NCBI GenBank assembly: GCA_016936255.1
Contig: JAFGYE010000114.1
Coordinates: forward strand, 1 to 64,000
Direction of reading: 5' to 3'
From: Marinifilaceae bacterium
GTDB lineage: Bacteria; Bacteroidota; Bacteroidia; Bacteroidales; Marinifilaceae
Length of the DNA: 64,000 bases
The translations under genes and the position numbers were made by a program. Every line of letters begins with the position of its first letter. Positions within the stretch are counted from its first letter, which is position 1. Positions 11,941 to 18,088 of this stretch are shown here, in pieces. Under the pieces are notes generated by a model that saw only the letters and a list, made by a program, of their open reading frames with translations, was not told where the DNA came from and made no database searches.

Positions 11941-12069
11941 CGTAATCTAAGAATAAACTAATTTCATTAACTCAAAAAGCTAAAATTTGAATTCCTTTTA
12001 TAAATTTCAGCTTGTTTTTCACCAGTGATTTATAAAAAGAACTATTTTTATGCCGAAATAGTAAAGACG

Positions 12070-12954
12070 ATGAAAAGAAAATATAAAGTATCGGTTATTC
12101 AGCTTAACCTAAACGACATACCAGAAAACAACCTTAAAAAATGTTTAAACTGGGTAAGAGAGGCAGCAAAAAAAGGAGCAGAGGTAATATCATTACCTGA
12201 ACTATACAGCAGTCATTATTTCTGCCAAAGTGAAGATGTTGACAATTTTGCTTTAGCCGAACCTTTGTACAGCACATCATTTACAGCTTTTAGTGCTTTA
12301 GCAAAAGAACTGGGAGTCGTGATTATTGTTCCGTTTTTTGAAAAAAGAATGCCAGGTATCTATCACAACAGCGCATACATCATTGATACTGATGGATCGG
12401 AAGCTGGTTTGTACCGAAAAATGCACATCCCGGATGATCCTCATTTTTACGAAAAATTCTATTTTACCCCAGGAGATTTAGGCTTTAAAAGCATAAATAC
12501 TCAAAAAGGCAAAATAGGAACCTTAATTTGCTGGGATCAATGGTATCCTGAAGCCGCAAGATTAACTGCGCTGAAAGGAGCTGAAATATTATTTTACCCT
12601 ACTGCTATTGGTTGGGCTCCTCACGAAGTTGAGGAGTATGGAGAAAAACAATACGGTGCATGGATGAATGTAATGAAAGGTCATGCTGTTGCAAATGGAA
12701 TTTATGTTGCTGCAGCAAACCGAATAGGATTAGAAAAATATGTTCCTGACACAAATGGAATTATCTTTTGGGGAGGTTCATTTATTGCCGGCCCGCAAGG
12801 TGAAATACTAGCTCAGGCCTCTCACGATAAAGAAGAAATATTAATTGCTGAAGTCGACTTGGATTTACAAGAGAATGTTCGCCAAAACTGGCCATTTTTC
12901 AGAGACCGAAGAATTGATGCATTCAGCGAAATTACCAAAAGAGCAATTGATTAA
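12070..12954 (+). CDS. aguB: N-carbamoylputrescine amidase
   Basis: This 294-aa nitrilase-superfamily amidase hydrolyses N-carbamoylputrescine to putrescine, CO2 and ammonia in the cytoplasm. The catalytic triad is visible: Glu in SLPELY, Lys in LYRKMHIPDDP, and Cys in LICWDQWYPEAARL, the last being diagnostic of AguB. The ATG at 12070 (MKRKYKVSVIQLN) starts exactly where the family starts; the longer frame begins only at a GTG (12025) and adds 15 unrelated residues. The stop is followed two bases later by aguA, so the two form an operon for agmatine to putrescine conversion. Confidence 0.95.
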   Translation: MKRKYKVSVIQLNLNDIPENNLKKCLNWVREAAKKGAEVISLPELYSSHYFCQSEDVDNFALAEPLYSTSFTAFSALAKELGVVIIVPFFEKRMPGIYHNSAYIIDTDGSEAGLYRKMHIPDDPHFYEKFYFTPGDLGFKSINTQKGKIGTLICWDQWYPEAARLTALKGAEILFYPTAIGWAPHEVEEYGEKQYGAWMNVMKGHAVANGIYVAAANRIGLEKYVPDTNGIIFWGGSFIAGPQGEILAQASHDKEEILIAEVDLDLQENVRQNWPFFRDRRIDAFSEITKRAID

Positions 12955-12956
12955 GT

Positions 12957-14000
12957 ATGAGCGCACAAAATAGAAGATTCCCTGCTGAATGGGAGAAGCA
13001 ACAAGGTATTATTCTTTGCTTTCCTCACAACGGGAACGATTGGCCAGGAAAATATCAGGCGATACAATGGGCATTTGTTGAATTTATCAAGAAAATTGCC
13101 GGTATTGAGCAGGTAGTACTTGTTGTTGCCAATGAAAAAATAAAACAAAAAGTAAGTGACATGCTTGCAACGGCTCATGTGAATCTTGAGAATATCGATT
13201 ACTTAATACATAAAACGAATCGAAGTTGGATGCGCGATTCTGGACCTATTATTGTAAAAAATGGAACTGAATCGAGAGAGGCATTGAACTTTAACTTTAA
13301 TGGTTGGGCGAAATATAAAAATTTCCAATTAGACAAACCCGTACCTGAGAAATTAGCTGCCTTTCTAAAAATCCCTGTAACACAAGCAATTTACAAAGGA
13401 AAACCTGTTGTATTGGAAGGTGGAGCTATTGATACCAACGGGAAAGGAACGCTTTTAACTTCCGAAGAATGTTTACTGGATCCCAAAATTCAGGTTCGAA
13501 ATCCAGAATTTACAAAATCAGATTACGAAGCCGTTTTTAAAGAATATTTGGGAATTACAAACACCATTTGGTTAGGCAATGGAATTAGCGGAGACGATAC
13601 ACATGGACACATCGATGATTTGTGCCGGTTTGTTAACCAAAACACCATTATTACGGTTGTTGAATCGAACAAAGAGGATACAAATTACTTGCCTTTGCAG
13701 GATAATTTAGCCAGATTAAAAAATGCCAGACTAGAAGATGGTACACAGCCTAATATTGTAGAATTACCAATGCCGGGTAAATTAGAATTCGATGGAATTC
13801 GAATACCTGCCAGCTATGCCAATTTTTTAATTCTAAATAAGTGCGTTCTTGTTCCTACATTCAACGACAGTAAAGACCGTATTGCCTTACAAACCATAGC
13901 CGATTGTTTTCCTGACAGAGAAATAATAGGCATCAGTGCTATTGATTTAATTTGGGGTTTTGGAACATTGCACTGTTTAAGCCAACAAATTCCTGAATAA
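12957..14000 (+). CDS. aguA: Agmatine deiminase
   Basis: This 347-aa Porphyromonas-type peptidyl-arginine/agmatine deiminase converts agmatine to N-carbamoylputrescine and ammonia. Family motifs are intact: RFPAEWEKQQGIILCFPHN at the start, WMRDSGPI, NFNGWAKY, LEGGAID, GDDTHGHIDD and the catalytic Cys in GTLHCLSQQ near the C-terminus. It lacks a signal peptide, so it acts in the cytoplasm. It lies two bases after aguB. The agmatine source, arginine decarboxylase, is not in the window. A hairpin follows. Confidence 0.95.
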   Translation: MSAQNRRFPAEWEKQQGIILCFPHNGNDWPGKYQAIQWAFVEFIKKIAGIEQVVLVVANEKIKQKVSDMLATAHVNLENIDYLIHKTNRSWMRDSGPIIVKNGTESREALNFNFNGWAKYKNFQLDKPVPEKLAAFLKIPVTQAIYKGKPVVLEGGAIDTNGKGTLLTSEECLLDPKIQVRNPEFTKSDYEAVFKEYLGITNTIWLGNGISGDDTHGHIDDLCRFVNQNTIITVVESNKEDTNYLPLQDNLARLKNARLEDGTQPNIVELPMPGKLEFDGIRIPASYANFLILNKCVLVPTFNDSKDRIALQTIADCFPDREIIGISAIDLIWGFGTLHCLSQQIPE

Positions 14001-14230: not shown

Positions 14231-15760
14231 CTAGAAATCATAACGAATTCCTGTGAAGATACCAATTGAATACGGCTTGTAATCATACTGACTACTGGTA
14301 TTTATGGAATTCAGATAATATTTAACCGAAGGTTCCAATCCAATTTGAAGTTTTGAATTCAGCCTGTATTCCAATCCAAAACTAAATTGAGAACTAAAAT
14401 TAGTTGCTCGTATTCCTTCAATCTCCCCAATTTTCTTATTTCCTCCATTTGATTGATCATACACTCCATTTCCAACAATCATGTTAGCACTTAAACCACC
14501 CGAAACAAACATCCCAACTCTTTTTTGAATGAGATTATACCGCATCAAAAAAGGTATTTCGATGGCTTTAAAACTTTGAATTAAATCTGCTGATGATGAA
14601 TACGAATTGGTACTAAGAAATGCTTCTCCAGAAGGCGTAGACTGTGGCAAACTACTACCACCACTCAACCGTATTGGCCCTGCAGAAGTTACCGAAGGAT
14701 AGGAAACCTCTCTAATTAACGATTTATCTTCCGGAATTAGATTTACATCAGAATTCGTAGTTGCATCAGCATACATTAAATCACGATGGCCTCCACCAGA
14801 ATTCAAATCCTGTCCAAAACGATTGTATACAATTCCAGTCTGAAAAGCAAATTTGTCATTCATTGCAAAATTCACTTTCGCTCCTCCTCCTACGCTCCAA
14901 ATCCCAGATTCAATATTACTTCCTTTGTTATCACCTGAATAGGAAGAGTAGCTTGAAGATACTTGACCGATAATCGACCATTTATTTTCTTTAATTTTAT
15001 CTCTCCCCAATTGCTCAATTGCCAAAATATTTTTTCGAATTTGCATTTCGTCCGCCAACAGTACTAAATCCTGTTGTTTAAATAATTGACTCGTATTGGG
15101 GAGCAACTGACTAGGAAGATCGTTCTTAAAATTCGAAAGTTTTTCTTCCAATGTACGATTCATCAATAGATTTACAAATTCGCTATCTAAAAAGGTCAAA
15201 TCCTTTTCTTTTGATAGAAAAACCATATCCGGATCCGATCTTCTAATTTTGGCACTATTAGAATCTGAAAACTTGTTAAACTTACTGTTCAAATTTCCCG
15301 TGACAAAAATTTCCAGCGAATTAGTCTCATTTAAATTCGCTTTGATAGATGATGAATTTGCAAGAATTATGTTATCTTGCTTATTTTCAAATACATATGA
15401 TTCATTTGTAATGTTCGCATTGTTGGTCAACTCTTTTTTTGTTGAACTATTTGCTTTAGAATCTATATCCTGATTTAATTCCGACTCAAAATTGTTTTGA
15501 AGCGATGTCCTATTTTCAGAAACAGTATTTAATTGCATTTTGTAATTTGGCTGACTGATAAAATACTGATTACCTATTGCTAACAGTAAAAGTATCGACG
15601 CTGCGATGCCAGTCCATATGTAAATAGCAATCCTCCGCTTTTTCTTTGCCGCCATTAATTGACTGTTTATTCCTTCCCACACTTTAGAATTCGGTGGAAC
15701 AGACAGATTTTTTAATCCATCAGCAAAAAGACTGTCAATATGTTTGTTGTCCTTTAGCAT
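14231..15760 (-). CDS. Putative anti-sigma factor with C-terminal outer-membrane beta-barrel
   Basis: This 509-aa protein of mixed architecture has an N-terminal cytoplasmic segment (residues 1-41) containing LSVPPNSKVWEGI, which resembles the start of Bacteroidota sigma-associated regulators. One membrane helix (43-66) is followed by a long Ser/Asn-rich periplasmic linker (70-270). A C-terminal domain (about 280-509) has alternating strands and ends in GIRYDF with a terminal Phe, as in porin-family barrels. It has no cleavable signal. It overlaps the ECF sigma gene by 7 bases, which strongly suggests co-regulation, probably as its anti-sigma partner. That role is inferred from context. Confidence 0.65.
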   Translation of the reverse strand: MLKDNKHIDSLFADGLKNLSVPPNSKVWEGINSQLMAAKKKRRIAIYIWTGIAASILLLLAIGNQYFISQPNYKMQLNTVSENRTSLQNNFESELNQDIDSKANSSTKKELTNNANITNESYVFENKQDNIILANSSSIKANLNETNSLEIFVTGNLNSKFNKFSDSNSAKIRRSDPDMVFLSKEKDLTFLDSEFVNLLMNRTLEEKLSNFKNDLPSQLLPNTSQLFKQQDLVLLADEMQIRKNILAIEQLGRDKIKENKWSIIGQVSSSYSSYSGDNKGSNIESGIWSVGGGAKVNFAMNDKFAFQTGIVYNRFGQDLNSGGGHRDLMYADATTNSDVNLIPEDKSLIREVSYPSVTSAGPIRLSGGSSLPQSTPSGEAFLSTNSYSSSADLIQSFKAIEIPFLMRYNLIQKRVGMFVSGGLSANMIVGNGVYDQSNGGNKKIGEIEGIRATNFSSQFSFGLEYRLNSKLQIGLEPSVKYYLNSINTSSQYDYKPYSIGIFTGIRYDF

Positions 15761-16317
15761 ACTCTCAAATTATTCTCTTTTACCTTCAAATAATCACTCA
15801 CTTTTTGCTTTAAAATAGCTCTTCCCCGAGCCAAATTAGATTTTGATGTTCCAACAGTAATATTCATCACTTCAGCAATTTCATTGTGCGGGTATCCATC
15901 AAGTACATACAGACTAAACACCATACGATAGCGATCTGGTAATTCCTGTACCATTTTAAGTAAAATATCTATGGAAATATCCGATTCGGAATAATTGACA
16001 TCACCCTCATCTGCTGTGTCAATAGCTTCTTCTACCAACTGAATTTTCTTAGCTTTCCGAAATTTTTCCAGTGCTGTATTAACCATTATTCTCCTCATCC
16101 ATCCTTCAAACGAACCTTTAAACTGATAGGATTTAACATTCTGAAAAATTTTAATGAACCCATCCTGCAAAGTATCCTCAGCCTCAGCCAAATCTTTAGA
16201 ATAGCGCAAACATACCCCCAACATTTTAGAGGCAAATTCTACATAGAGAAATTCTTGTGCTTTCGATTTTCCCTTAATGCAATCCTTTATTATTTGATCC
16301 AACTTATGGTTTTCCAA
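15754..16317 (-). CDS. ECF-type RNA polymerase sigma factor
   Basis: This 187-aa sigma-70 family factor of the extracytoplasmic-function class directs RNA polymerase to a dedicated regulon. Region 2 is at about residues 20-92 (DTLQDGFIKIFQNV, GSFEGWMRRIMVNTALEKFRK). Region 4 is at about 118-172 (LPDRYRMVFSLYVLDGYPHNEIAEVMNITVGT). The C-terminus overlaps the start of the membrane/barrel protein at 14231, giving the usual sigma plus membrane regulator arrangement. It is transcribed from a region containing the palindrome at 16341. Confidence 0.93.
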   Translation of the reverse strand: MENHKLDQIIKDCIKGKSKAQEFLYVEFASKMLGVCLRYSKDLAEAEDTLQDGFIKIFQNVKSYQFKGSFEGWMRRIMVNTALEKFRKAKKIQLVEEAIDTADEGDVNYSESDISIDILLKMVQELPDRYRMVFSLYVLDGYPHNEIAEVMNITVGTSKSNLARGRAILKQKVSDYLKVKENNLRVC

Positions 16318-16354: not shown

Positions 16355-16542
16355 TAGTTACAGTAATTACAAATGGGTTGCGTTAAAATTACGCTTTTTT
16401 TTTAAAAGGTATTCCATTCTTATCTCCCCTCCATGGAACTTCAAAATTAAATTTAAAAAATAACAGCTCCCAAAGCAACCAATCTCCTTTTTACTCATCA
16501 AAAAGATAAATCAACAGAAATATTAATTTATTATTTATAAAA

Positions 16543-17256
16543 ATGAAAAGTTTAAAATTTAGCCTTTTACTATTGGTTTCAATATCGATATTGCCTTCTT
16601 GCGACACAAATGAGTATCAGGAACCAGAACTTGATGGTATTGGTGATGTGTTTGTTCGTTGTATTAAAGTAGGTGATGAAACACATTTCGCTCCATTTTT
16701 TTATGCTTACTCGAATAAAAATTTATCAGAAGTATTGGTGGAAAGTCCTATAAATGATGCGCCGGACTATGTATTAGGTGATTATATGACAAATAAAAAA
16801 GTATTTAGACTTCTACCTAAAGTAACAGACTATAGCTCAACAGATATTGCTAATGGTTTTTACAAATTTGAGATGGTTTCGATAGGACAAGAAACAATTA
16901 AAGTTCAAGATAAATTGTTAGATTCTAGAATCGAGCCTATAGAAATTACTGATTTCATCTATACAACAGATGGACATAAGTTTAATATTTCCTGGAATGA
17001 ATTGGATAATGCAGACATCTATGTTGTAAAATTTATGTCTGAGAAAGATGGTAAGGTTCTTTATGTTTCGAATCAATTATCAACAACAGAATATGAGTTT
17101 AATGAAAACTCAAAGAATTGGGACTCGAATACTCAATTAACTGCTGGCACTACATATTTCGTGGGTGTATTTGCATACGAATTTGAAAGTGCAACAGCCA
17201 ACAATGGATTTGATATCAATAGTGAAACAGTAGAATACAAAGAAATAGTTTGGTAA
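16543..17256 (+). CDS. Hypothetical lipoprotein with an FN3-like domain
   Basis: This 237-aa secreted lipoprotein has signal peptide 1-19 ending LPSC with the lipid-bearing Cys20, followed by DTNEYQEPE. An acidic residue at +2 is consistent with surface or outer-membrane placement in Bacteroidota. The C-terminal part (about 137-235) has strand pattern and motifs such as HKFNISWNELDNADIYVVKF and LTAGTTYFVGVFAYEFES, typical of a fibronectin type III fold. The N-terminal domain is unrecognised. The gene is single and divergent from the sigma gene, so it may be a regulon member. A strong hairpin follows. Confidence 0.75.
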   Translation: MKSLKFSLLLLVSISILPSCDTNEYQEPELDGIGDVFVRCIKVGDETHFAPFFYAYSNKNLSEVLVESPINDAPDYVLGDYMTNKKVFRLLPKVTDYSSTDIANGFYKFEMVSIGQETIKVQDKLLDSRIEPIEITDFIYTTDGHKFNISWNELDNADIYVVKFMSEKDGKVLYVSNQLSTTEYEFNENSKNWDSNTQLTAGTTYFVGVFAYEFESATANNGFDINSETVEYKEIVW

Positions 17257-17365: not shown

Positions 17366-18088
17366 TTAGAAACCGATACCTAAAATAAGGTTAGCAGTTT
17401 CAGCTTGTGGGTTAACACCAATTTTAGCCCAGGCATTTAAAGAAAAGCTATCGGTAATTTTGATTTCTCTTGTTGCTGAAGCTCCAATATTAACGAAACC
17501 AAAACTCTCTCCGTAAACTTGATTTTCAAATGGATTAAGGCCTGCAAATAATGAAACAGTTTCTCCACCTATTTTAACTGGGTAACCAAACTCAACATAA
17601 GTTGAATAATTCTGATTTCCTTCTGCATCTAAATCACGTCCGTAAAGCATGGTAGCTACGCTAAGACTTAAAGGAAACTGCTCAGTAAAATAAAAATTGA
17701 AACTTGCATCAATCAAGTGATTGGTTGTACTTTTATCTAAGTCAAGATAATTGTAATCGTCGATAGAAGCTCTATCTCTGTTTGCGAATAAATCCCAAAC
17801 TGCAACATTAAAATGATCACTAAACTTGTATCCTACGTGGAAATCAAACTCTGAATAAGTATTATCGAATGCATATCCACCCCAAGCTCCAAATGTGAAG
17901 TTATTGTTCGTGTAAGCAAGATCCATTTCGAAGTTAGCAGTATTACTTACCATGATACCTCTCCAGTAATGACGAGTAGTTACCGATGGGCTAACTGATA
18001 CTTTTCCTTGTGCGTTAACAGTAAGGTTTGAAGCCATTATTATTACCAGAACCAATAGTGCCGATATTTTAAATGTAATTTTTTTCAT
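17366..18088 (-). CDS. Outer membrane beta-barrel protein, TorF-like porin
   Basis: This 240-aa protein has signal peptide 1-26 (ending VNA-Q) and then a beta-rich sequence with aromatic-capped alternating strands and the motif SVSPSVTTRHYWRGIMVSN near the N-terminus. It ends in NLILGIGF with a terminal Phe, as expected for BAM-assembled barrels. About 10-12 strands fit the length. Its place directly downstream of glpF and glpK suggests that it helps glycerol or a related solute cross the outer membrane. This is an inference from position; the family itself is poorly characterised. Confidence 0.7.
   Translation of the reverse strand: MKKITFKISALLVLVIIMASNLTVNAQGKVSVSPSVTTRHYWRGIMVSNTANFEMDLAYTNNNFTFGAWGGYAFDNTYSEFDFHVGYKFSDHFNVAVWDLFANRDRASIDDYNYLDLDKSTTNHLIDASFNFYFTEQFPLSLSVATMLYGRDLDAEGNQNYSTYVEFGYPVKIGGETVSLFAGLNPFENQVYGESFGFVNIGASATREIKITDSFSLNAWAKIGVNPQAETANLILGIGF

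Follow-up and report, generated by a model that had tools for sequence, protein, structure and literature searches.

A sigma factor gene and an overlapping gene for a predicted two-membrane barrel protein form a probable Dma-type pair in a Marinifilaceae bacterium

The overlapping genes and the predicted architecture of the 509-residue protein

The window, which is the whole stretch of 64,000 nucleotides analysed from a Marinifilaceae bacterium, carries two overlapping genes on the minus strand. The upstream gene (15754..16317, -) starts with TTG and encodes a Das/EcfO-like sigma factor of 187 residues. Pfam searches matched it to Sigma70_r4_2 (E 1.2e-16) and Sigma70_r2 (E 2.7e-14), as expected of a clear ECF factor. 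The downstream gene (14231..15760, -) starts with ATG and encodes a protein of 509 residues. The two genes share 7 bp (15754..15760, -), which suggests translational coupling. The first-pass annotation had described an ECF sigma factor gene overlapping a membrane-protein gene, and both reading frames were found where it had placed them. Nearby, a carbon-nitrogen hydrolase gene is followed by a PAD_porph (agmatine-deiminase-type) gene (12025-14000, +), probably an ordinary polyamine pair. A secreted protein of 240 residues without a Pfam match is encoded at 17366-18088 (-); by placement and length, an open reading frame of 240-243 residues occupies this position in 12 of 14 Marinifilaceae loci that have sequence ahead of the sigma gene.

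The structure of the 509-residue protein was predicted with AlphaFold2 from an alignment of 66 sequences, consisting of the window protein and 65 of 80 loci from a contig search after removal of near-duplicates and fragments. A smaller alignment combined the window protein with 19 loci out of the other 29 among the best 30 matches in a search of 96 genomes. The model contained helices at residues 6-17, 25-68 (a long helix enclosing the hydrophobic segment) and 233-254, and eight long strands at residues 260-508, mostly with high pLDDT. Because the pTM was 0.50 and the pLDDT was below 50 at 190 of the 509 residues, the placement of the head relative to the barrel lies outside what the model shows.

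Residues 1-40 (15641..15760, -) were predicted to form a two-helix cytoplasmic head (residues 6-17 and from residue 25), and its conservation and its tandem duplication in relatives suggest that it may be a sigma-binding module. A conserved motif lies within the roughly 43 residues that come before the hydrophobic segment; across the 66 sequences, F12 was invariant, and D9, L16, P23 and W28 were each conserved in at least 90%. The sole hydrophobic segment begins at residue 44 with a mean hydropathy of 2.38 and was assigned as a single inner-membrane helix (residues 44-64; 15569..15631, -). The net charge was +5 in the 12 residues before the helix and +1 after it. The charge before the helix exceeded that after it in 65 of the 66 aligned proteins and equalled it in the remaining one, and this bias predicts an N-terminus inside the cell. 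Hydropathy, charge bias and the model are all in line with the cytoplasmic start and single inner-membrane helix that the first-pass annotation had suggested. Pfam searches at E up to 1 detected neither FecR nor any other known anti-sigma domain in the protein, and no class I anti-sigma family of the RseA/ZAS type; only about 40 residues precede the helix.

The periplasmic tether (residues 69-259; 14984..15556, -) was predicted to be disordered, with pLDDT below 50 at residues 73-189 and 202-232, apart from the helix at residues 233-254. It comprises 191 residues in the window protein and 116-191 across the 66 sequences. An extended chain spans approximately 0.35 nm per residue, so that even 116 residues could reach about 40 nm, more than the usual width of the periplasm. 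This segment had been described as a Ser/Asn-rich linker of 200 residues. Its length and its richness in Asn (14.3% of residues 65-260) and Ser (11.2%) held, and Leu was also abundant (12.2%).

Residues 260-509 (14234..14983, -) were predicted to form an eight-stranded outer-membrane barrel ending in Phe, as the first-pass annotation had anticipated; the C-terminal residue was Phe in all 66 aligned proteins. Compared with solved structures, residues 254-509 resembled the OmpA/NspA/OmpW barrels at Z 16-17: NspA (1p4t; Z 16.6, rmsd 2.9, 152 aligned), OmpA (Z 16.4) and OmpW (2f1v_A; Z 16.0, rmsd 2.6, 167 aligned). Pfam matches to OMP_b-brl (E 2.8e-05) and OMP_b-brl_2 (E 8.9e-05) both lay below the curated cut-offs. 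The prediction gave an outer-membrane barrel and not a soluble periplasmic fold for the C-terminus, and together with the conservation in the family it supports a topology that spans both membranes. A phage origin was also considered and rejected, as PHROGs gave no match at E up to 0.01 for the 509-residue protein or for the neighbouring lipoprotein described below.

Distribution of the pair and repeated heads in relatives

The 509-residue protein was matched in 59 of the 96 relatives' genomes at E up to 1e-3, and the other 37 gave no match. Its closest named relatives were Labilibaculum, Marinifilum and Ancylomarina, all Marinifilaceae. Within its own genome, a single-sequence search found this copy only, and a phylum profile search gave two matches. 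A sigma gene lay directly upstream on the same strand in all of the best 30 matches of the 96-genome search, the window's own included, and in all 77 contig-search loci with upstream sequence. The contig search had yielded 80 loci, of which three (L078, L108 and L110) were cut at contig ends and could not be used for sigma pairing; since a single peptide pattern in the barrel defined this search, the resulting set samples one branch. The sigma and barrel genes overlapped by 1 to 44 nt, with start codons as chosen, in 76 of the 77 loci, the exception (L082) having a gap of 38 nt. In the 30 loci, as in the 77 paired ones, a single protein carries both head and barrel. The first-pass annotation had called for a survey of the pair's distribution, and its outcome argues that the pairing is not due to chance; the upstream sigma factor would be the cognate partner of the 509-residue protein. 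One contig-search locus (L109:3488-8318, +) carries two sigma-Dma pairs on one contig approximately 1.8 kb apart, the second Dma being cut by the end of the locus.

The phylum profile search matched 129 of 395 genomes; many of the weaker matches among those listed covered the first 150-200 model positions in short open reading frames, and the barrel need not be present in them. Three such matches (G310:C4, G459:C19 and G207:C8) covered about 150-176 model positions, comprising head, helix and tether, in frames of only 260-265 codons, and are possibly anti-sigma factors with the same head and without a barrel. A separate sigma gene adjoined the barrel gene in 28 of 30 further loci (29 phylum-search loci and L208). 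The exceptions were L203, which has no sigma gene, and L207, in which a sigma fragment is fused in frame to a barrel fragment. The L207 frame (1498-2154, -) encodes 218 residues; the first 60 residues of a sigma factor are followed by the C-terminal portion of a Dma barrel, as would result from loss of the central part of the operon. A Dma model derived from the 30 loci recognised six homologues in five genomes of the same order (E 2e-15 to 4e-11). In the five of two-gene form, from four genomes, the head matched the head model of the window's branch weakly (E 0.003 to 0.79). The only full sigma-barrel fusion among the loci examined was L229:1463-3106 (-), a protein of 547 residues in which an ECF sigma factor (residues 2-179) runs directly onto a membrane helix, tether and barrel with no recognisable head. 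This natural fusion, like the head duplications described next, lends indirect support to the predicted contact between head and sigma factor.

Relatives with more than one head were also found. The L208 protein, from genome G064, has six head copies, spaced by 40-47 residues, ahead of one membrane helix, one tether and one barrel. Copies 2-5 share 79-94% DNA identity, and copies 1 and 6 have diverged, with 48-62% identity to the others. When the repeat region was searched in 393 genomes of the same order, 13 matched, with six heads in G064 (L208/L209), four in G670 (L210), four in G574 (L211), two in G825 (L212) and one in each of the other nine. G064, G574 and G670 are all three examined genomes of one family in the order, every one of them matching, and G825 belongs to another family. 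The last barrel strand of the G574 protein is not visible because its frame reaches the contig end. A single sigma gene immediately precedes each multi-head gene and overlaps it with the chosen start codons. A scan of the open reading frames of the contig-search and phylum-search loci revealed no second confident head in any other protein.

The tandem copies support the head as an autonomous module, and we infer that each copy would bind a sigma factor. Such relatives would allow the stoichiometry and gain of signalling from the surface to transcription to be measured in natural variants. A bolder reading, which we hold tentatively and with slightly more doubt than belief, is that the 40-residue head is a sigma-holding cassette copied to set how many sigma factors are restrained per barrel (one in the window; two, four and six in relatives), so that the number of cassettes would tune the gain of a single-polypeptide line from the surface to RNA polymerase. 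We found no description of a tandem-head Dma variant in the literature covered, most subscription papers lying outside that coverage; the papers listed for tandem anti-sigma domains dealt with cell-surface signalling by other systems.

Predicted promoters and candidate targets

A putative autoregulatory ECF promoter, CGCAACC-N15-TAACTA (16355..16382, -), lies 37 nt before the sigma start and was aligned with relatives; Labilibaculum, Marinifilum and Ancylomarina share a conserved region ahead of the sigma gene. In the contig-search set, a GCAAC box with other limits preceded 73 of 77 sigma genes, against 5.7 expected from mononucleotide shuffles. The strict pattern CGCAAC[CTA]-N13-17-C[AGT][TA]C, which was written after viewing this result on the same sequences, was found upstream of 75 of the 77 sigma genes (missing L086 and L109), compared with a mean of 0.05 and a maximum of 1 in dinucleotide shuffles. 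It preceded only one of 392 other open reading frames of the same loci, namely the divergent lipoprotein of L044. The window locus lies outside the 77-locus set; its promoter copy does not fit the strict pattern, as the -10 box begins with T. Among other relatives, the strict pattern occurred in 1 of 25 phylum-search loci, in none of the six same-order homologues (L229 included) and in none of the four multi-head loci. L209 has a CGCAACG box with CATC about 15 nt further on, some 220 nt upstream, which falls outside the strict pattern. On these pattern counts, the predicted CGCAACC-type promoter is largely confined to the branch and is not a feature of the whole family.

A second predicted promoter, GCAACC-N15-CATCAA (16475..16501, +), faces a lipoprotein gene on the opposite strand (16543..17256, +). 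A similar site was present in 15 of 15 loci, window included, under a looser pattern that was derived from the same 15 loci. The lipoprotein has 237 residues and two predicted beta-sandwich domains (model pLDDT 87.4). Where sequence is available at this divergent position, in 14 Labilibaculum, Marinifilum and Ancylomarina loci, a homologue is always encoded; the fifteenth (L034) is cut short. A structure search with the lipoprotein model showed weak resemblance to tandem Ig/FN3-like folds (best E 1.1e-4; TM below 0.4 among the matches listed). No Pfam family scored above its cut-off, and NigD was rejected as its identity, since a Pfam search at E up to 0.1 gave no NigD family. We regard this gene as the likeliest target of the sigma factor, and the sigma-barrel operon reads as a putatively autoregulated unit with a conserved divergent target.

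A genome-wide regulon could not be derived from the motif alone, which was dropped as unspecific, since matches with at most one mismatch numbered 84 in the own genome against 88 in the control. Exact matches numbered 8 against 1 in the own genome and 50 against 29 in nine genomes of the genus, the own one included. Many single matches are thus due to chance, and only conserved sites before genes carry weight. Of the eight exact sites in the own genome, three lie inside open frames (313, 473 and 568 codons) and one has no gene found downstream. The candidates retained were the sites close before envelope genes, comprising the two window sites, a divergent pair on contig C119 and a SIMPL-domain protein on contig C31, the last two being further candidate targets. 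On C119 (near 1433-1520), an LVIVD-repeat lipoprotein and a secreted protein of 259 residues are divergently encoded and have facing promoter-like sites, CGCAACC-N15-CATCAT and the same with CATCAA. Both sites lie in an open stretch of 303 codons on the strand of the 259-residue gene, which reads as that gene's frame continuing upstream of its start. Paired sites of this type were also found in five other genomes of the genus (G002, G004, G005, G007 and G096).

Proposed mechanism, alternatives and known systems

The architecture, gene pairing, orientation, promoter conservation and repeatable head, as read from sequence or prediction, make it highly probable that the window pair is a Dma-type cell-surface signalling unit, in which the 509-residue protein is held in both membranes and its head releases the sigma factor upon disturbance of the outer membrane. 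The barrel would lie in the outer membrane, the tether would cross the periplasm, and one inner-membrane helix would place the head in the cytoplasm, where its 40 residues are predicted to bind the ECF sigma factor and keep it inactive. A disturbance of the outer membrane or of barrel assembly would break this hold, by tension, conformational change or proteolysis. The freed sigma factor would then act on CGCAACC-N15-type promoters, transcribing the operon that encodes it and a few envelope genes, foremost the divergent lipoprotein. By analogy with published systems, the signal may be outer-membrane stress.

A narrower version of this mechanism is possible, although we consider it rather less probable, in which no ligand is sensed at all: upon BAM failure, the unassembled barrel would expose the tether to proteases, the helix would be cut and the sigma factor would be freed. 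Its appeal lies in the response of the corresponding pair of Phocaeicola vulgatus, which is induced by toxins perturbing the outer membrane, one of which apparently inhibits BamA. According to passages of PMC9308784 and PMC13114119, ecfO-reo was among the most upregulated genes under BcpT or Bd-A treatment. Bd-A is apparently bacteroidetocin A, described as inhibiting BamA in the literature covered, which includes PMC12596196, PMC8999054, PMC7406223 and PMC12045153. The invariant C-terminal Phe and the stronger conservation of the barrel strands (1.09-1.81 bits of entropy in the 66 sequences) relative to the predicted outer loops (2.18-2.81 bits) are consistent with such a role. However, the predicted periplasmic turns (2.17-2.26 bits) are as variable as outer loops L3 and L4, which means that the difference in entropy does not set the surface apart, and Pardue 2026 (PMC13088901) proposes an unknown glycan as the signal of Dma2. 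Cleavage soon after synthesis, with the head, helix and tether cut from the barrel to give two proteins acting in the manner of FecR, is improbable. The long, disordered and poorly conserved tether (mean entropy 2.92 bits in the 66 sequences) resembles a protease-accessible linker, but the Pfam searches revealed no FecR or known anti-sigma domain, and a single polypeptide holds head and barrel in both sets of loci. The curated Pfam matches at E below 0.01, which are to barrel families only and below cut-off, would suit a plain outer-membrane protein that has a long signal sequence and whose gene overlaps a sigma gene by chance, but we reject this very improbable explanation given the conserved motif ahead of the hydrophobic segment, the sigma pairing in 77 of 77 loci and the repetition of the head two to six times in relatives.

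These considerations favor the Dma-type reading, which can be compared with known systems. In the FecI-FecR-FecA system, an event at the outer membrane controls an ECF sigma factor, as is proposed for the window pair. The 509-residue protein differs in having no FecR domain, and one polypeptide would replace both FecR and the receptor. The first-pass annotation had presented this as a shortening of the FecA-FecR-FecI relay to one step; the single-polypeptide topology is indeed predicted here, but the idea is not new, having been published for Dma1/Das1 and EcfO/Reo, and activation may take more than one step if proteolysis intervenes.

As described by Pardue 2026 (PMC13088901), proteins of the Dma family consist of a sigma-binding domain, a membrane helix, a long disordered tether and a barrel, and are encoded beside ECF21 sigma factors in Bacteroidota. 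The same text describes the Dma1/Das1 and Dma2/Das2 pairs, with Dma1/Das1 acting through nigD1, and a Dma3 that carries its own N-terminal sigma domain. Later papers cite Pardue 2024 (PNAS) and Ndamukong 2013 as the earlier work behind these systems. The window pair resembles Dma1/Das1 in its predicted N-terminal sigma-binding head, single membrane helix, disordered tether, barrel and adjacent sigma gene. It differs in its predicted target, a lipoprotein that has two domains and matches no NigD family in Pfam, whereas Dma1/Das1 use nigD1. Dma3 likewise links a sigma factor physically to an outer-membrane barrel, and the L229 fusion resembles its description; the sigma factor is an N-terminal domain in Dma3 and a separate gene in the window.

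For EcfO/Reo of P. vulgatus and Bacteroides fragilis, the parts of PMC9308784 and PMC13114119 that treat this pair describe an anti-sigma factor extending from the cytoplasm to the surface, with the sigma gene upstream, as is predicted for the window pair. In P. vulgatus, the same sources present the anti-sigma factor as a likely sensor of outer-membrane stress, and loss of its gene switches on the sigma regulon. That regulon includes three nigD genes, whereas the window's lipoprotein has no NigD match.

As the single-polypeptide idea has already been published, the window pair mainly extends the recently named Dma family to a marine genus. What is added here is a promoter that predicts targets in one branch of the family, a conserved divergent lipoprotein as the probable output, and relatives in which one barrel protein bears two to six predicted sigma-holding heads. 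Placed by architecture and gene pairing, and compared with the named members by description only, the window pair appears to be a new and divergent member of the Dma type.
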